64,000 nt of DNA from Desertivirga xinjiangensis. GTDB lineage: Bacteria; Bacteroidota; Bacteroidia; Sphingobacteriales; Sphingobacteriaceae. The stretch is from positions 1-64,000 of the forward strand of contig NZ_JAFMZP010000012.1 of assembly GCF_024436435.1 (NCBI RefSeq), written 5' to 3'. Position 1 is the stretch's first letter; every line of letters begins with the position of its first letter. Positions 22,228 through 33,211 of this stretch are shown piece by piece. A model generated the notes under the pieces. It made no database searches. It was given only the letters and a program-made list of their open reading frames with translations, and was not told the origin of the DNA. A program made the translations under genes and the position numbers.

Positions 22228-23661
22228 ATGAAACTCAATTCTTTCTTACTTTTTATCACATCTATCATCTATGGAATAAGTTTGATCAGCTGCTCAAAAC
22301 CAGCAAAAACTAAAGGTAGCGACAAGGTAGTTGGCGAATACGAGGCAGTTCTTACAGATGCTCCAAACGTTCCGAAATCCGCAGGATACGATTCACCTGA
22401 AAAGGTTGTTGTAAAGCTGGAAGTTATCGAAAAGGTGATGCGGCTTGCTGATGGGGTGGAGTATAACTTCTGGACCTTTGGGGGAAAAGTGCCTGGTAAG
22501 TTTATCCGTATCCGGGAGGGAGATGAGGTTGAGTTTTACCTCAGTAATCATCCCGACAACAAACTACCTCATAACATTGATTTGCATGCTGTAACAGGGC
22601 CTGGAGGCGGTGCTGAAGCATCCATGACAGCCCCGGGACATACTTCCCAATTCTCTTTCAAGGCTCTCAATCCTGGCTTATATGTTTACCATTGCGCAAC
22701 TGCTCCGGTAGGTATGCATATAGCAAATGGCATGTACGGACTCATCTTCGTTGAGCCGAAAGAGGGACTGCCTCCTGTAGATAAGGAGTTTTACATTATG
22801 CAGAGTGAGTTTTATACAAAAGCGAAGTTTGGAGAGCCGGGCCTGACCTCCTTTGATATGGAAAAAGCCTTTGATGAACATCCCGATTATGTAGTTTTCA
22901 ATGGCGCTGTTGGGGCCAGCTCAGGCGATCAGGCGATGCAGGTTAAAGTGGGAGAGACGGTGCGTTTATTTGTGGGAAACGGGGGGCCGGGTCTCATATC
23001 CTCATTTCATGTGATCGGAGAAATCTTTGACAAAGTATGGGTTGAAGGCGGGTCGTTAGTAAACAATAATGTTCAAACAACATTGATTCCGGCTGGCGGT
23101 GCTGCCATTGTCGAGTTTAAATGTGAAGTTCCTGGCACCCTGAACCTGGTAGATCATTCCATCTTCAGAACTTTCAATAAAGGCGCGCTGGCTCAGATCA
23201 AGGTAGTGGGGGAGGAGAATCACCAGTTATTCTCCGGAAAACAGAAGGATATGGTTTATCTGCCGGAGGGATCAGCCGTTCAGTCTATTACGCCTGAAAA
23301 GGAGGAAGTGGCGGTGCCCGAAAAGACGTTTGAAGAGCGCATAAGCCAGGGAAAAGTTTTGTTCGAAACAAATTGTGCTGCCTGTCATCAGAAAAACGGG
23401 GAAGGTCTTGGTGATGCATTCCCACCATTGGCTAAATCAGATTACCTGATGTCGCAAAAGGACAAGGGGATAGGTATTCTGCTGCATGGATTGTCTGGAA
23501 AGATAAAGGTGAACAAGAAGGACTATGATGGAGTGATGCCTCAAATGCAGTTAAAAGACGATGAGATTGCAAGCATATTAACTTATGTGCGAAATAATTT
23601 TGGGAATAAAGATGGATTAGTGAAGGCGGCGGAGGTAAAGAAGGTTAGAAATGGAAAATAA
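22228..23661 (+). CDS. nirK: Copper nitrite reductase NirK with a C-terminal cytochrome c domain
   Basis: Reduces nitrite to nitric oxide in the periplasm or at the outer face of a membrane. A lipobox (SLISC, Cys22) indicates a lipoprotein. Two cupredoxin domains carry the expected ligands: type 1 copper His115, Cys156, His164, Met169; type 2 copper His120, His155, His310; catalytic Asp118 and His261. A class I cytochrome c domain follows, with CAACH at 383-387 and Met437 as the probable axial ligand, so electrons can be received without a separate donor. The product is 477 residues. The SUMF1-like gene overlaps its 3' end by 11 bases, and SCO follows, as in other Bacteroidota nirK clusters. 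Confidence 0.93.
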
Positions 23662-25550: not shown

Positions 25551-25907
25551 ATGTTTTTAAAACGAAAAAGGCTTGTATACTCCTGTTCCGGTTGTTCAAG
25601 CGCAGCGCAAATGGCTAATTACCTGGCCATACAATTAGACCGCTCGCGGCTGGCGGATATGTCCTGCATTGCCGGTTTAGGGGGTGATGTAAAAAAGATG
25701 GTCAAAGCAGCAAAGCAGGCTTCTGAGATCATAGCCATAGATGGATGTCCCCTGGCCTGTGCAAAGGCTTGTCTGGATCGTCACGGGCTGCTCCCTGACA
25801 TTCACTACCAACTTGGACATAGCGGTGTTAAAAAGAAGGATCATGAGGATTTCGATATCGTCCAGGCCCAGCAGATTTTAAAGAAAATAAAAGAACTTTT
25901 GAAGTAA
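25551..25907 (+). CDS. DGC-domain putative zinc-binding protein
   Basis: A 118-residue protein of the DGC family, named for the Asp-Gly-Cys motif at 64-66 (IDGCPLACAKACL). The remaining conserved cysteines are visible at 12, 15, 39, 70 and 74, enough for a metal site. The biochemical role is unknown; members often lie near anaerobic respiration or metal genes, and here the gene sits between the nirK and narK units. No signal peptide. It may share a transcript with narK, 82 bases downstream. Confidence 0.75.
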   Translation: MFLKRKRLVYSCSGCSSAAQMANYLAIQLDRSRLADMSCIAGLGGDVKKMVKAAKQASEIIAIDGCPLACAKACLDRHGLLPDIHYQLGHSGVKKKDHEDFDIVQAQQILKKIKELLK

Positions 25908-25989
25908 GAGGCTAAGTGTTTTCGGTTAAAAACATAAACTAATATATAGGTGTATTATATATCACAAACTAATCAAATTTAATTTGCTT

Positions 25990-27489
25990 ATGTTAACCGA
26001 TCAACCAGTAGGTTTCAAATCTCACAAAATCCTTTTCCTTAATACTTTGGGTTTCCTGGTGTCTTTTGCAGCCTGGATGATCAATGGCGTTTTGGTCACC
26101 TATCTCACAGATAATGGTATTTTTGAGTGGACCATAGTTGAAATTGGCTGGCTGCTGGGTGTCCCGGTGCTTACTGGTTCGGTTTTCAGACTCCCCATCG
26201 GAATATTGACAGACAAGATTGGTGGGAAATGGGTTTTCGGGACTTTGCTTGTCTTTAGTGCTATACCTATGTTCCTCTTATCATTTGCCAACAATTATCT
26301 GAGTTTCCTGATATTAAGCTTTTTGTTTGGTATGGCCGGAACAAGCTTCGCGGTTGGCGTAGGCTATACCTCTGTTTGGTATCCTAAAAACTGGCAGGGA
26401 AGAGCCATCGGTATCTTTGGAGTGGGCTCTGCAGGTGCTTCGCTCACCACACTGATCGGACCTTCATTATTGGATAAGTTAACAAATGCAGGCGCAAATC
26501 CTGAAGGCTGGCGACAAATGCCGGTGATATATGCGGTTATTCTTCTGGGAGTGGGCTTGCTGTTTTTCTTTTTTGCTGAAAACATGAAGCCGGCGGCAAG
26601 TAGTAAATCTCTGGCACAGCTTCTTTCACCTCTCAAGGAAATCAGGGTATGGCGCTTTGGCCTCTATTATTTCCTGGTGTTTGGTTGTTTTGTAACGTTC
26701 TCGCAATGGCTGGTGCCATATTTTGTAAATGTCTATAACGCAGATCTGGTTCTTGCTGGTTTTTTTGCATCCTGCTTTAGTTTACCTACAGGACTCTTCA
26801 GGGCTGTAGGCGGATTTTTATCAGACAAATATGGCGCCCGGAAAGTGATGTATGGAGTTCTGGGAATATCTGTAATATTGAGCTTTTTGCTGATCATTCC
26901 CCGTATGGAGATAGCTTCTCCCGGCTCAGGGATCATGGCCACGAAAGACGGCGTGGTGACAGCGGTTGGGCCAGACAGGATAATGGTGGGAGATAAAGAA
27001 TATAAGATCGTCAAGAAAAACAGGGTGTTTGAAAAAGTAAGGAATAACGTAATGGTTTTTCCGCACAAAGACAACTGGCATGAGGTGCTTGTGAAACCGG
27101 GAGATAAGGTTGTTAAAAAGCAACTGTTGGCGCAGGGAACCACGCGGATCTATTTTCAGGCAAATATGTGGATCTTTATTGGCCTGGTTATGCTCATTGG
27201 AATGGCCTGGGGGATAGGAACTGCAGCGGTATTTAAACACATTCCTGAATATTTCCCGACTCAGATTGGCCTTGTAGGTGGAATGGTTGGATTAATAGGA
27301 GGTTTAGGTGGATTTGTGGGGCCGATCCTGTTCGGCTATCTGTTAACCGGCACAGGTTTATGGACGAGTTCCTGGATGTTTGTATGGGTGCTTTCAGTGA
27401 TATGCATTGTATGGATGCACCTGGTAATTACGAATATGATGGCTAAACGCTCTCCTGATTTAAAAGATAAGTTTGAGCATTTAAGCTAA
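25990..27489 (+). CDS. narK: NarK/NasA-family nitrate/nitrite transporter with an extra loop domain
   Basis: Major facilitator transporter of about 499 residues for nitrate uptake and/or nitrite exchange. FGMAGTSFAVGVGYTSVW-type residues (about 114-131) and GLVGGMVGLIGGLGGFVGP (about 427-445) are the two glycine-rich nitrate signature regions, and RLPIGILTDKIGGKW carries the substrate Arg. Between helices, at about residues 303-385, is an insert of some 80 residues rich in Lys, Gly and Val (EVLVKPGDKVVKKQLLAQG), which looks like a small beta domain of the barrel-sandwich type. The start at 25990 is the ATG; a TTG two codons upstream is less likely. It converges on the nitrate reductase operon. 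Confidence 0.88.
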   Translation: MLTDQPVGFKSHKILFLNTLGFLVSFAAWMINGVLVTYLTDNGIFEWTIVEIGWLLGVPVLTGSVFRLPIGILTDKIGGKWVFGTLLVFSAIPMFLLSFANNYLSFLILSFLFGMAGTSFAVGVGYTSVWYPKNWQGRAIGIFGVGSAGASLTTLIGPSLLDKLTNAGANPEGWRQMPVIYAVILLGVGLLFFFFAENMKPAASSKSLAQLLSPLKEIRVWRFGLYYFLVFGCFVTFSQWLVPYFVNVYNADLVLAGFFASCFSLPTGLFRAVGGFLSDKYGARKVMYGVLGISVILSFLLIIPRMEIASPGSGIMATKDGVVTAVGPDRIMVGDKEYKIVKKNRVFEKVRNNVMVFPHKDNWHEVLVKPGDKVVKKQLLAQGTTRIYFQANMWIFIGLVMLIGMAWGIGTAAVFKHIPEYFPTQIGLVGGMVGLIGGLGGFVGPILFGYLLTGTGLWTSSWMFVWVLSVICIVWMHLVITNMMAKRSPDLKDKFEHLS

Positions 27490-27529: not shown

Positions 27530-27790
27530 CTATCTGTACTTCACCTTTTTGTTTCTTATGATTCCCGGCATAAAATATAGCCAGCCAAAACCGACCAGGA
27601 AAAGGCCTAACGAAGCCAGAAATGCGGGAAATGCGATATCAACATTTTCGTTTAGCGCGTTATTCAAAGCGGTGTAAAGCAACCAGATCTGGATGCTTAC
27701 ATTTAAGATCAGTACAACAATTAAGGCCACCATCAATGTACTGGTTTTGTTAGGATGTGCCTGATTTTGCGCTTCTCTGAAATTACTCAT
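27530..27790 (-). CDS. Small two-helix membrane protein at the end of the nitrate reductase operon
   Basis: An 86-residue protein with helices at about 18-42 and 52-75 and a basic C-terminus (PGIIRNKKVKYR). I do not recognise the function; similar small proteins close nitrate reductase operons in other Bacteroidota, so an accessory or assembly role is an inference from context. It is separated from the Rieske gene by 60 bases of tandem repeat. Confidence 0.65.
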   Translation of the reverse strand: MSNFREAQNQAHPNKTSTLMVALIVVLILNVSIQIWLLYTALNNALNENVDIAFPAFLASLGLFLVGFGWLYFMPGIIRNKKVKYR

Positions 27791-27800
27791 TGGGTTTTTA

Positions 27801-27857
27801 GTTGTAAGTTGTAAGTGATAAGTTGTAAGTAATAAGTTGTAAGTAATAAGTTATAAG
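27801..27857. repeat. Tandem AAGTTGTAAGTAAT-type repeat
   Basis: About four imperfect units of a 14-base motif (AAGTTGTAAGTAAT) lie between the Rieske and two-helix protein genes, touching the Rieske stop codon region. A related stretch occurs on the other strand at 50840-50865. Such repeats are unstable in length; I see no other function. Confidence 0.7.
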
Positions 27858-28363
27858 GTTTTAGGACTCGTTTCGAATTCTCTAACATAGATGTCATCGC
27901 CCTTGAAGATGACATCTAGTCTCGGTAGCGGCCGCGGCGGCGGCCCGGCCAGCACTTCGCCGGTCAGGGCATCGAACCATCCGTTATGGCAAGGACATTC
28001 AATTTTGCCAGACTTTGGCATGTAGAACACTGCACAGGATAAATGGGTGCATTTTTGTTCATAAGCCCTGAAGTCGTCCTTTTCTGTCCGGATAAGCACA
28101 TAGGGGATAGTGCTGCCCGGGATCACAAATGACTTGGTTCCACCCTGCGGAAGTTCGTCCTTTTTACATACAAAATGTTCACCCTGTACTTTTTCAGCAG
28201 GGAAGAAGTTTGCTTTTGCAGCAACGTAGCCACTTCCTACAGCCAGGCCTCCGGAAACCAGGCAGAGAAACTTTGCAAAGTCGCGCCTGCTGACCTGTGT
28301 TGCATCCAGTTGCTGAATCGGAAAATCTACCTTCCATTGATTATCTTTATTGTTTGTAGCCAT
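27851..28363 (-). CDS. Rieske 2Fe-2S protein with a Tat-type signal
   Basis: A 170-residue Rieske iron-sulfur protein. The cluster ligands are Cys105-x-His107 and Cys123-x2-His126, with the disulfide cysteines Cys110 and Cys125, so a high-potential quinol-oxidising type is likely. The N-terminal SRRDFAKFL (25-33) followed by a hydrophobic helix is a twin-arginine signal-anchor like those of bc1-type Rieske proteins, placing the domain outside the cytoplasm. It begins two bases after the FeS subunit gene stops. In this operon it may link the quinone pool to the reductase or to NirK; no cytochrome bc1 genes are beside it. Confidence 0.88.
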   Translation of the reverse strand: MATNNKDNQWKVDFPIQQLDATQVSRRDFAKFLCLVSGGLAVGSGYVAAKANFFPAEKVQGEHFVCKKDELPQGGTKSFVIPGSTIPYVLIRTEKDDFRAYEQKCTHLSCAVFYMPKSGKIECPCHNGWFDALTGEVLAGPPPRPLPRLDVIFKGDDIYVREFETSPKTL

Positions 28364-28365
28364 AT

Positions 28366-28935
28366 TTAATCGACTCTTAAAACTGTAGTTCCTTTTGGCA
28401 TCATGATATTTACTTTTGTGCTTACCTTTTCGTTGCCGAAGATGAAGTTATTAACCGGAGAGCTGTTGGGACGCATCCTGGCAATCTCTTCCCTGGTTCC
28501 ATAAAACAAGGCTTGTGTTGGACAAACGGTAGCGCACATTGGTTTTTTGCCGGCACTGGTGCGGTCATAACACATATTGCATTTCATCATCAGATCGTAT
28601 GCCTCGTTCTTTTTGGGAACTCCAAAAGGACAAGCCATTACACAATTTGAGCAGCCAATGCAGCGAGCCGTATTTGCCGTGTGCACTACTCCAAATTCGT
28701 CTTTAGAAATGGCGTCTGCAGGACAAACATTTGCACAAACCGGGTCATCGCAGTGCATACACACTTGTACCGTGGTCTGGATGGTCACAGCCCTGTCAAC
28801 ATAATTAACATGGATCATGGAGTCATGTCCGTTTGTTTCACATTCGGCGCATGCCATTTCGCAGGCTTTGCAGCCAATGCATCGCTGCATGTCGACAAAG
28901 AATTCCTGGTTGGTCTGATAATTAGTTTCTGGCAT
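28366..28935 (-). CDS. Four-cluster 4Fe-4S electron-transfer subunit of the nitrate reductase
   Basis: A 189-residue protein of the DmsB/NrfC/PhsB type. Four cysteine groups are visible: [11 protein letters not shown] (from Cys19), [26 protein letters not shown] and [21 protein letters not shown] (residue ranges read by eye). It would wire the membrane cytochrome to the molybdenum subunit. No signal peptide, so it is on the cytoplasmic side unless carried out by a partner. It lies 22 bases after the catalytic gene and two before the Rieske gene. Confidence 0.9.
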
Positions 28936-28957
28936 AATTTCAATTTATGATAGATGG

Positions 28958-31174
28958 TTAAACGCTTGCAAAAGCTTGTGAATCGGTTGAGGGCGGCGAT
29001 TTTATTCCGAGTGGTTCCAGTTTGCATGCACAAACTTTAAATTCCGGGATCTTTGAAACAGGATCTAAGGTTCCAGGGGTAAACTGGTTGGCCGACTTCT
29101 TTCCAGGCCAGTGATAAGGGAGAAATACGGTGTCCTTACGTATTGTCTCCACTATATTGGCGGGAAATTCATCCGAGCCACGGCGTGTTGATACTCTTAC
29201 CATCTCATCCTGGCCGATACCATACTTCGCAGCCAGTTCCGGATGAATTTCAAGCTTAGGCTCAGGATACAGATCCACCAATTTTCCAATCCGGCGGGTC
29301 TGGGTTCCGCTCAGATACTGCGATACGACACGTCCGGTAGTCATCACAACCGGGTATTCCTCATCGGTTACCTCGCCGGGCGGGCGGTAAGCTGCAGCAT
29401 TAAAATGAGCTTTACCATCAGCGGTCGCAAATTTCTTATCTTCCCAAAGCCTGGGTGTTCCGGGATGGTCCAGTGTAGGACAGGGCCAGAAAACTCCCAT
29501 ATTGTCTTCGATCTTTTTATAAGTGATACCGAAGTAATCTGCGGTGCCTCCTTTAGAGGCGACACGTAGCTCATTGAAAATATCTTCGCTGCTATTATAG
29601 GTAAATTTATCTTCTGCGCCCAGACGTTTTGCGAGCTCGAGGATAATTGAGGTGTCAGTGCGTGCCTGACCGGGAGGATCCACGGCTCTTTTTATGCGCA
29701 CCACCCTGCCTTCGGCGGTGGTTACAGTACCCTCCTCTTCTTCATGCAGCGAACCGGGCAGAATAATGTCTGCATGGCGGGACGTCTCATTCATGAAAAA
29801 GTCAATGCAGACATAAAATTCCAGCTTTTCAAGTGCTTCGCGAACATAGTTGTTGTTTGGTAAGGATACCAGTGGATTGAAGCAAATGGAAAGCAGTCCC
29901 TTTACTTCACCCCGGTGAATCGCCTCAATTAGTTCGTACGCTGTAAGGCCTTTTCCCGGCATGTCTTTTTCGTCAATGCCCCATACATCCGCGATGTATT
30001 TCCGGTGTTCGGGATTGGTGATATCCCTGTTTCCCGGCAGCTGATCACATTTATGGCCATGTTCTCTTCCTCCCTGCCCGTTTCCCTGTCCTGTTATGGT
30101 ACCATAACCGCAATACGGTTTGCCAATACGACCAGTCGCCAGAACAAGGTTAATGCAGCCAACAACATTGTCAACGCCTTTCGAATGATGTTCGATGCCG
30201 CGTGCATGAAGCAAAAAGCTGGTAGCGGCTTTTCCCCACCACTGGGAAGCAAGTTCGATCTTTTGTTTTTCTATACCGGTTACCTCTTCAGCCCATTCTA
30301 GCGTATAGTCCTTAACGGCTTCGAGGGTTTGTTCAAAACCGGTAGTATAGTTTTCAATGAAATCATGGTCAAGCATGTCATGATCGGCCAGATACTTAAG
30401 CATGGCTCCGTATAATGCAGAGTCGGTACCAGGTCTGATAGCCAGGTGAAGATCGGCAGTCCGTGCCAGGGGTATAACCCTGGGGTCCACTACGATCAGC
30501 TTAGCTCCGTAATCCCTTGCGCGCCAGATCCAGTGTGTAAGGGTAGGGAAGGTTTCGCTTACATTAGCTCCGCTTATCATAATAACTTCGGCCCGTTCAA
30601 GATCCTGGAAGTTGTTTGAAATGCGGTCGAGTCCAAATGCTTTTTTATTTCCGGCACCGGCACTCACCATGCACAGGCGGCCGTTATAGTCGAGGTTGGC
30701 AGTCTTTACAGCTACCCGGGCAAACTTGCCCATTAAATAACTTTTTTCGTTGCTTAATGACACCCCTGATAATATCGAGAAAGCATCATTACCATAGCTG
30801 GCCTGGATACGTTTAATTTCCGAAACCGTTTTTTCCATGGCCTCATCCCATGAGGTGTTTTGGAAGCCTACACCCTCCTGTCGCTGAATAGGCTGTAATA
30901 AACGGTCGGGATGGTTGTTTTGCATATAGCGCTGAACTCCTTTAGGGCATAAACGGCCTTCATTAAATGGGAACTCCATCCAGGGTTCAAACCCGACCAC
31001 ATGATTTTTCTTGACCAGTAATTTAATTCCGCACTGCATACCGCAAAAACAGCAGTGGGTATTCACTATTTCGTCCGGCTCGTCGCGACCAACGAAGCCT
31101 TCCTGCGGAGGGTAATTGCGATGAGGGCCGAATTGTTCAATTAATTTTTCTGGAGAAACAGGGAGACGCGCCAT
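28958..31174 (-). CDS. Molybdopterin nitrate reductase catalytic subunit (NasC/NarB/NapA-like)
   Basis: Mo-bisMGD oxidoreductase of 738 residues, probably reducing nitrate to nitrite. The N-terminal 4Fe-4S site uses Cys41, Cys44, Cys48 and Cys76 (HCCFCGMQC...RLCPKG). The Mo ligand is probably Cys168 in [12 protein letters not shown], the position used in Nas/Nap enzymes, whereas NarG has Asp. [17 protein letters not shown] is the usual MGD-binding segment. No Tat signal is present at the N-terminus, which favours a cytoplasmic enzyme. Formate dehydrogenase-like activity cannot be excluded, but NarK and NirK next door favour nitrate. It lacks the C-terminal 2Fe-2S domain of NasC. Confidence 0.85.
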
Positions 31175-31198
31175 AAATGCTTTATCTGAATAATAATT

Positions 31199-32266
31199 TT
31201 AACCAAATAGTTTCCCGCCATTTTCCTGACGGGCTTTAAGATGAGCCATTGCCAAACGCGAGCGTTTACCTTCGGGACTAAGATCAAGATGGGAAGAGCC
31301 GTCTTCGAGGCGAAAATCAAATCCAAGTTCTTTGGTAACGATCTTTAAATCGTCAATATGCAGCTGAGTAGCAAATTCCTTTCCTGTGTGCGGGCAGGTA
31401 GCCATTCCTCGCTTCATGCCCTCCCTCTTATAGATATGGGCTCCAATCTGAGCCGGGCGTTGGATGATGTGGAAGAACTTGCCGAAGGGGATCCATATCA
31501 GGAACATAATAACTGTTACAGCGTGTGTTACAGCCATGAAGTCGTAGGCCATCCCTTTCATAAACTCATAGTCGTAGCTTAATCCCAAACCTGTGATAGA
31601 GATAGCTAATAACAGTATCAATGGCAATAGATCTCCCTCAAAAGTTTGTGTGGCGATCAATCCTGCCTGAGTGAGCCGCCGTCGCATAAATATCAGTACC
31701 CCTATAATAACCAGCCAGGAACACCAGTTCAGCGCGTGAAATGTTAAAAAAGCGATGAAAGAGCCCAGTTTGAATTCGAAGATCTTAAAACCGAAAAAAT
31801 GGGCTTCATACATCCGGATACTTTCCGGATTAAGACTTGTTTCGGCATTCATAGTAAAGTGTATCCAGCCGAAGGTAAGCGGAAAAGTAATGGCAAAGGC
31901 CAGTGTACAGCCAATTGCCATAAGAAAATGCCCAATCCAGCGGGTTCTTCCACGTGGGTAGATAAATTTCTGAAAACCGATGTTTTGAACGAACTCTTTG
32001 CCGAAAAATAATAGATGAGCAAATACCTTACCCTTGAAAAAGAACTGCCAGGTGCGTTTAAAATACATCCAGGTAGGCGGGCGCTGCAACCAAACCGAGT
32101 ACCGGTAAACCACTCCAAAAAAAGCAAACACAGTACCAAATAAGTAACCTATAAGTGCCGGATCAAAGTTCTGGAGTTCCCGTGAACCATAAAAAACCAT
32201 GGCAATTACAAGGGCCGAAACCAAGGTCGCTATTATTAAGGCTTTTTTATTAAGGGAGGCAATCAT
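31199..32266 (-). CDS. Membrane cytochrome b-type subunit of the nitrate reductase (NarI-like)
   Basis: First gene of the operon, 355 residues with about six hydrophobic helices. Several membrane His residues (for example in FLMAIG, GWIHFTMN, AHFFGF, TFHALNWCSW, VTHAVTV and KFFHIIQRP) could bind heme b, as in NarI/DsrM-type quinol oxidases. The C-terminal 75 residues are soluble, with a CPHTGKEFATQ segment of unknown role. It would take electrons from menaquinol and pass them to the four-cluster subunit. An FNR-type palindrome lies 48 bases upstream of the start. Confidence 0.8.
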   Translation of the reverse strand: MIASLNKKALIIATLVSALVIAMVFYGSRELQNFDPALIGYLFGTVFAFFGVVYRYSVWLQRPPTWMYFKRTWQFFFKGKVFAHLLFFGKEFVQNIGFQKFIYPRGRTRWIGHFLMAIGCTLAFAITFPLTFGWIHFTMNAETSLNPESIRMYEAHFFGFKIFEFKLGSFIAFLTFHALNWCSWLVIIGVLIFMRRRLTQAGLIATQTFEGDLLPLILLLAISITGLGLSYDYEFMKGMAYDFMAVTHAVTVIMFLIWIPFGKFFHIIQRPAQIGAHIYKREGMKRGMATCPHTGKEFATQLHIDDLKIVTKELGFDFRLEDGSSHLDLSPEGKRSRLAMAHLKARQENGGKLFG

Positions 32267-32313: not shown

Positions 32314-32333
32314 AATATGATCTAAATCATATT
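32314..32333. promoter_or_regulatory. FNR/Crp-type operator upstream of the nitrate reductase operon
   Basis: Perfect 8-bp arms AATATGAT and ATCATATT flank CTAA, fitting the TTGAT-N4-ATCAA layout. The centre is 57.5 bases before the cytochrome b start. An activator at -41.5 would set the transcription start about 16 bases before the ATG. It also lies 118 bases before the rhodanese-like gene on the other strand. A similar site is at 11847-11860. Confidence 0.65.
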
Positions 32334-32450: not shown

Positions 32451-32756
32451 ATGGACAATAGAAATGATTCCTTAACTCACCATCAGTTATCCCTGAAGAT
32501 CAATTACCAGGAGTCCTTGCAGATCATCGATATTAGTGAAGACCTTGACCTGGCTGATCTTCCTTATCCAAACGTTTTGCACGTCCCGGCAAGCAAACTC
32601 CTGGAACTTACAGATCAGATTCAGCAAGATATCCCGGTAATACTGGTAGATAAGGATGAACGGCGAAGCAGAAAGCTTTGTACACTGCTTAATGAGGAAT
32701 ATGGATTTGGTAATATATATTATTTAACAGAAGTACCTGCGGGAGCTGATCACTAG
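32451..32756 (+). CDS. Rhodanese-like domain protein without the catalytic cysteine
   Basis: A 101-residue single-domain protein. The pattern IIDISEDLDLADLPYPNVLHVPASKLLELT and then PVILVDKDERRSRKL follows the rhodanese fold, but the loop that should begin with the catalytic Cys reads VDKDERRS, with Asp in its place. It cannot make a persulfide there and may instead bind or sense. It is divergent from the nitrate reductase operon and followed by the convergent Rrf2 gene. Confidence 0.65.
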   Translation: MDNRNDSLTHHQLSLKINYQESLQIIDISEDLDLADLPYPNVLHVPASKLLELTDQIQQDIPVILVDKDERRSRKLCTLLNEEYGFGNIYYLTEVPAGADH

Positions 32757-32782: not shown

Positions 32783-33211
32783 CTACTTCAAAAAATACTT
32801 ATTCTCTTCGAAATCTCTCACCATTTCAAATACTGATTTCTTACTGAATTCAATAAGCAATTGCGTTCGGATAGGTTTTATTTGATGATGCATTGGGCAG
32901 GGCTTTATATCGGAACAGGTTTTTAAGCCCATAACGCAGGCGCTGAACAGATCGTTGCCGTCAACAGCTCTCACTATTTCTATGAGATGAACAGTTTTAG
33001 GATCATCGATAAAAAAGCCGCCGTTGGGACCTTTAGCTGAAGAGATAACCCCTTTTCGTGATAAGGCCTGTAGAATCTTGCCTACGAAATGCATAGGAGC
33101 ACCGATAGCCTCTGAAATTTCGATAATTCCGGCTTTGCTACCCTTGTGGCTGCGGTAAGCTATATAAACCGTTGCTCTGATTGCATATTCGCACGACTTG
33201 GAAAGTATCAT
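32783..33211 (-). CDS. Rrf2-family iron-sulfur regulator (NsrR-like)
   Basis: DNA-binding regulator of 142 residues with a winged helix at the N-terminus (LSKSCEYAIRATVYIA) and the Rrf2 cysteines Cys92, Cys99 and Cys105 spaced as in IscR/NsrR. NsrR senses nitric oxide through its cluster; IscR senses Fe-S status. Next to genes that make NO from nitrate, an NO-sensing role is the more attractive guess. The spacing does not decide between them. Confidence 0.82.
   Translation of the reverse strand: MILSKSCEYAIRATVYIAYRSHKGSKAGIIEISEAIGAPMHFVGKILQALSRKGVISSAKGPNGGFFIDDPKTVHLIEIVRAVDGNDLFSACVMGLKTCSDIKPCPMHHQIKPIRTQLLIEFSKKSVFEMVRDFEENKYFLK

Follow-up and report, generated by a model that had tools for sequence, protein, structure and literature searches.

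The genome of Desertivirga xinjiangensis carries, in the 64,000-nucleotide stretch analysed here (contig NZ_JAFMZP010000012.1, positions 1 to 64,000; hereafter the window), an operon of five genes at 27530-32266 that likely encodes a single membrane-bound respiratory nitrate reductase, a menaquinol:nitrate enzyme with a cytoplasmic active site. The catalytic subunit is of the assimilatory NasC lineage, and its partners are a NarI-like cytochrome b, a four-cluster iron-sulfur (FeS) protein, a Rieske protein, and the small membrane protein DUF6755. No description of such a five-subunit module was found in the open-access PMC literature, to which the search was confined.

Composition of the operon

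All five open reading frames (ORFs) lie on the minus strand. The cytochrome b membrane subunit (31199..32266, 355 aa) was assigned by profile, histidine spacing, and structure model, and the catalytic molybdenum-bis-pyranopterin guanine dinucleotide subunit (28958..31174, 738 aa), with one [4Fe-4S] cluster, a Cys168-Met169 pair, and no export signal, by Pfam, NCBIfam, tree, and alignment. Next come a DmsB/FdnH/NrfC-like electron transfer subunit of 189 aa with 16 cluster cysteines for four [4Fe-4S] clusters (28366..28935; Pfam, NCBIfam, and profile), a Rieske [2Fe-2S] protein of 170 aa with a twin-arginine signal anchor (27851..28363; Pfam Rieske and alignment), and DUF6755, an 86-aa protein matching PF20540 with two hydrophobic segments (27530..27790). 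The gaps between consecutive genes, from cytochrome b to DUF6755, are 24, 22, 2, and 60 bp. A preliminary sequence-only reading, made without database searches, had proposed five same-strand genes for a b-type membrane subunit, a Mo subunit with a Cys ligand, a four-cluster FeS protein, a Rieske protein, and a two-helix protein; its coordinates were exact, and the families, cysteine counts, and alignments agreed with its description.

The Mo subunit contains the Pfam domains Molybdopterin, Molydop_binding, and Molybdop_Fe4S4, and its best NCBIfam model was assimilatory NasC, at 828 bits and below the 1100-bit cut-off. The Mo ligand is C168 in the motif NGRLCM; this position is Cys in all aligned homologues, so the Asp ligand of NarGHI-type enzymes is absent. 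The Cys-Met pair was common to the Mo subunit, NasA, NasC, and NapA, whereas the formate dehydrogenases in the same alignment have Cys or Sec followed by His. By maximum-likelihood analysis, the proteins of the module formed one clade (support 99/100) that was sister (94/99) to NasC proteins adjoining nirB in Paenibacillus, Mycobacterium, and Deinococcus, and separate from NapA, the formate dehydrogenases, and NarG; identity to enzymes of the assimilatory NasC/NasA/NarB lineage was about 36-45%. A twin-arginine or hydrophobic N-terminus was present in none of the 93 homologues. The "Nas/Nap-type" label of the sequence-only reading therefore held for its Nas half, given the NasC lineage in the tree, and failed for its Nap half: a twin-arginine translocation (Tat) signal is absent and the NapA score fell far under the cut-off. 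Assignment to the formate dehydrogenases, for which TIGR01591 scored 604, was also rejected on the Cys-Met active site and the position with NasC in the tree. The phylogeny suggested in that reading as a check thus placed the subunit beside nirB-adjacent NasC and outside the non-nitrate families.

For cytochrome b, no Pfam family was matched, including the bc-type PF00033; the best match among Protein Data Bank profiles was NarI, a weak one (E = 0.009). Structure prediction, with the Deinococcus rows left out of the input, gave a model (predicted local distance difference test score, pLDDT, 66) whose best structural matches were EtfD (Z 10.4), through its NarI-like domain, and NarI itself (Z 9.1-9.6). 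With this model Foldseek returned weak helical-bundle matches only (E > 0.1), and VIA-align clearly ranked EtfD and NarI first. Residues H113, H248, H266, and C120 were invariant in 91/91 homologues, and H177 was found in 89/91. H248 and H266 are 18 residues apart, the spacing of NarI H187 and H205, and H113 is probably the equivalent of NarI H56. Relative to NarI, the protein has an additional N-terminal helix and a predicted strand insert (residues 135-166) following the third helix.

The 16 cluster cysteines of the four-cluster protein fall into four sets of four; with one extra Cys, all 17 were present in 84/84 homologues. The Rieske protein was equally constant, with the twin arginines (RR), all cluster ligands, and two extra cysteines in 84/84 homologues. 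Its ligand motifs, CxHLxC and CPCH, are of the disulfide class, as in bc1/b6f proteins; its closest relatives by sequence are the b6f and bc1 Rieske proteins, and the domain is also similar to AioB. Because of the invariant RR, a weak hydrophobic anchor at the N-terminus, and this bc1/b6f ligand set, the Rieske protein most likely lies on the outer side of the membrane, across from the Mo subunit. The earlier placement of the Rieske protein outside and the Mo subunit inside was thus upheld by the RR pair in every Rieske homologue and by export signals in 0/93 Mo homologues. Work on bc1 Rieske proteins has established that replacing a Ser and a Tyr near the cluster lowers its potential. Both positions are changed here (CPCHxGxF; Ser to Gly, Tyr to Phe), which predicts a lower-potential cluster suited to menaquinol. 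The bc1 cytochrome b (PF00033) was detected in 0/21 module genomes and in 8/14 controls, and the idea that the module is a bc1 remnant was rejected on its absence from all 21.

Distribution and other nitrate genes

With the Mo subunit as query, 80 loci were recovered from a Bacteroidota genome collection, in Flavobacterium, Chitinophaga, Niastella, Mucilaginibacter, Arcticibacter, and Adhaeribacter. The genes run cytochrome b, Mo, FeS, Rieske, DUF6755 in 80/80, one of them lacking cytochrome b where the contig edge cuts the locus; chance falls far short of accounting for such a recurrent set. Four Deinococcus plasmids share the five-gene order, with identities of 60-62% for the Mo subunit and about 39% for cytochrome b; DUF6755 is annotated in three, the fourth has a small ORF at the corresponding position, and NarK-type genes are close to the module. 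The Deinococcus loci also have an extra protein of 65-70 aa ahead of cytochrome b (L085, 7581-7778). Pairwise subunit distances correlated (r 0.91-0.98), and in a sample of 395 genomes of the phylum cytochrome b occurred in 8, with DUF6755 in the identical 8, on the same contig and a few kb off. Conserved order, correlated distances, and these shared genomes together identify the Rieske gene and DUF6755 as true parts of the module. The sequence-only reading had suggested a search for the same order in other Bacteroidota and for linkage of the Rieske gene to the others; the order recurred throughout the 80 loci, and the Rieske gene was tied to its neighbours, and co-evolving with them, in every related locus.

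The module was found in 4/171 sampled genera and in 0/36 sampled genomes of the window's own genus and family, and the Mo protein of the window is nested in the tree among sequences of several families. This sparse distribution and nested position point to spread by horizontal transfer. Some Flavobacterium strains, LHD-85 and F. potami 17A among them (loci L013 and L063; L051 and L059), have two whole-module copies on different contigs.

When the module genomes were examined for other nitrate genes, NarG (TIGR01580) exceeded its cut-off in 0/58, the best scores being about 25-37 bits vs 1084, and NapA likewise in 0/58. These 58 include Flavobacterium denitrificans DSM 15936 and F. aquicola DSM 100880, species isolated as denitrifiers whose denitrification genes had not been described (PMC9339992). 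With neither NarG nor NapA over the cut-off alongside, the module is a specific candidate for the nitrate step of these Flavobacterium species and probably supplies the one that was missing. NirK was present in 7/8 module genomes vs 57/387 others in the phylum sample (p = 1.5e-5, the species being non-independent), and it exceeded the cut-off in 34/49 module genomes tested.

The window genome holds a separate second homologue, a 1177-residue frame in which a NasA portion is joined to a NirB-like reductase portion; the contig also encodes a full NirB at another position. The NasA-reductase fusion and NirB, which provide for assimilation apart from the module, were found in 18/20 module genomes. 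The module persists in F. sandaracinum and F. filum, in which neither NasA nor NirB exceeded the cut-off, and its constant function is therefore not assimilation. Surveys based on narG and napA counts would overlook it, and annotation files it as an assimilatory nitrate reductase or, for the Deinococcus cytochrome b, as an 'MFS transporter'.

Proposed mechanism and alternatives

We infer the quinol donor, the path of electrons, nitrate as the substrate, and the role of the Rieske protein, the path being read from the types of subunit present. Menaquinol would be oxidized at the NarI-like cytochrome b, and electrons would pass from the b heme or hemes through the four-cluster protein to the [4Fe-4S] cluster of the Mo subunit and then to the Mo centre. 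Nitrate would be reduced in the cytoplasm by the NasC-type subunit, with protons released outside as in NarGHI, and the adjoining NarK-type transporter would exchange nitrate and nitrite. Such a scheme would amount to the NarGHI layout with a NasC catalytic subunit in place. The Tat-anchored Rieske protein on the outer face would most likely act at the quinol site together with cytochrome b, serving as an extra acceptor or relay for one electron, and DUF6755 would be a small structural membrane subunit.

The likeness to NarGHI of Escherichia coli extends to the cytoplasmic Mo subunit, the four-cluster protein, the NarI-like cytochrome b, the NarK-type neighbour, and the inferred quinol donor. 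The module differs in its NasC-type catalytic subunit with a Cys ligand, in the extra Rieske and DUF6755 proteins, in the Ala at NarI H66, and in having neither a NarG match over the cut-off nor an evident NarJ; it would work like NarGHI, yet with its Cys ligand and no NarG match it is not a member of that family. With NasC, NasA, and NarB it shares lineage, the Cys-Met active site, and a cytoplasmic location; unlike them, it has four-cluster and membrane subunits, does not lie beside nirB, and scores under the NasC cut-off. It belongs to the NasC lineage by its catalytic subunit, not by its architecture, and goes against the statement of Wells et al. that four-cluster or membrane anchor subunits accompany no member of the NasA/NasC lineage (PMC7331816).

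Rieske and cytochrome b genes also occur in the operon of the haloarchaeal nitrate reductase pNar (NarB Rieske, NarC cytochrome b, and NarGH in Haloferax; PMC2483277), but pNar is a NarG-type enzyme outside the membrane with a bc-type NarC, whereas the module has an inside, NasC-type Mo subunit and a NarI-like b subunit. A Rieske subunit likewise accompanies the NasC-lineage Mo subunit of the arsenite oxidase AioAB; AioA, unlike the module protein, is periplasmic and without an amino-acid Mo ligand, and AioAB lacks cytochrome b and the four-cluster subunit. Bacillus ForCE resembles the module in being a cytoplasmic-type Mo enzyme tied to menaquinone through non-canonical partners (PMC8808070), but it is a formate dehydrogenase whose partner is DUF1641, with no cytochrome b and no Rieske protein. 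The disulfide-class Rieske protein with its Tat anchor is shared with bc1/b6f complexes, whose PF00033 cytochrome b the module does not have. The module places a Rieske protein in a nitrate reductase of organisms in which bc1 cytochrome b was not found.

Several observations weigh against the proposed enzyme. No NarJ-like chaperone was evident among the ORFs of the operon. In cytochrome b, an invariant Ala stands where NarI has H66, and H177 is the likeliest substitute ligand; H177 is absent in two homologues, making the second heme uncertain, so that one b heme is likely and two are possible. The N-terminal portion of the alignment with NarI is weak, and the pLDDT of the model is just 66. NirK above the cut-off was missing in 15/49 module genomes, and the link between module and denitrification is therefore not strict. 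The scheme by itself does not account for the invariable presence of the Rieske protein, since a NarI-like chain needs none, and to our knowledge the biochemistry of no member of the module has been described.

We considered whether electrons might instead enter from the periplasm. A carrier that receives them from alternative complex III, cytochrome c or another, would pass them through the Rieske protein and cytochrome b to the cytoplasmic nitrate reductase, which would then stand downstream of the cytochrome c pool, as an oxidase does. The apparent outer-face position of the Rieske protein (RR in 84/84), the absence of bc1 cytochrome b in 21/21 genomes, and the precedent of Streptomyces Nar1, a nitrate reductase placed after a Rieske system, which depends on and co-purifies with the Rieske-containing bcc-aa3 supercomplex (PMC7931247), are consistent with this route; however, the low potential predicted for the cluster fits menaquinol better than a cytochrome c donor, and the conserved operon includes no cytochrome c gene. 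We regard periplasmic entry as unlikely, and favour a Rieske role at the quinol site of cytochrome b. Cytochrome b and the Rieske protein could also form, outside the bc1/b6f family, a site that splits the electrons of quinol, sending one inward to nitrate and the second outward, by way of the Rieske protein, to acceptors in the periplasm such as the NirK-cytochrome c protein. This is a speculative proposal to which we give little weight; if true, one quinol oxidation would serve two steps of denitrification, one on each side of the membrane.

The lineage of the catalytic subunit would also suit an accessory assimilatory nitrate reductase that takes electrons from quinol in place of ferredoxin or NADH, but NasA and NirB already exist in 18/20 genomes, the two genomes without them retain the module, and the module is associated with NirK, which makes this role very improbable. 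Hardest to credit is an enzyme acting on another oxyanion (chlorate, iodate, or arsenite) and not on nitrate. Arsenite oxidase does join a Rieske protein to a Mo subunit of the NasC lineage (PMC7331816), and the Rieske domain is AioB-like; the Cys-Met pair is conserved, whereas AioA has no amino-acid Mo ligand, and the NarK-type and NirK neighbours, the cytoplasmic location, and the occurrence in denitrifying Flavobacterium without another respiratory nitrate reductase all argue for nitrate.

Neighbouring genes and possible regulation

A gene for a NarK-type nitrate/nitrite transporter (25984..27489, plus strand) is convergent with the operon and scored 177 bits with TIGR00886, under the cut-off of 311.7; a NarK-type gene lies near the module in most Bacteroidota loci. 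Module-adjacent Bacteroidota NarK proteins carry an insertion, about 75 residues long (around 313-390), that is absent from E. coli NarK and may be a small folded domain. The nearest functional partner of the module within the window is a copper nitrite reductase, NirK, with a cytochrome c domain fused at its C-terminus (22228..23661, plus strand; TIGR02376, 368 bits, cut-off 296), which is followed by an FGE/SUMF-like gene and then an SCO gene. The set of NirK-cytochrome c, FGE-like, SCO, and NarK-type genes was also found beside the operon in several Flavobacterium loci. Between the SCO and NarK-type genes of the window, a DGC-domain protein with many cysteines, putatively metal-binding, is encoded at 25551-25907. 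In F. denitrificans, genes read from the sequence as MoeA-, MobA-, and MoaE-like lie downstream of the operon.

Between the operon and a divergent ORF, a perfect palindrome, ATATGATCTAAATCATAT, forms a Crp/Fnr-like site (32316..32333). A TGATN4ATCA core was present upstream of cytochrome b in 4/12 other non-Flavobacterium loci, with about 0.02 expected per 400 bp, and a scan of the whole window for FNR sites was at chance (59 vs 56 expected). As the pattern was picked after the window was seen, the palindrome is weak evidence. The divergent ORF (32451-32756, 101 aa) had no Pfam match and is kept upstream in loci L003, L005, and L006. An Rrf2-type regulator (32783-33211) with three cysteines (CVMGLKTCSDIKPC) adjoins the operon and appears, as read from its sequence, to resemble the nitric oxide sensor NsrR.

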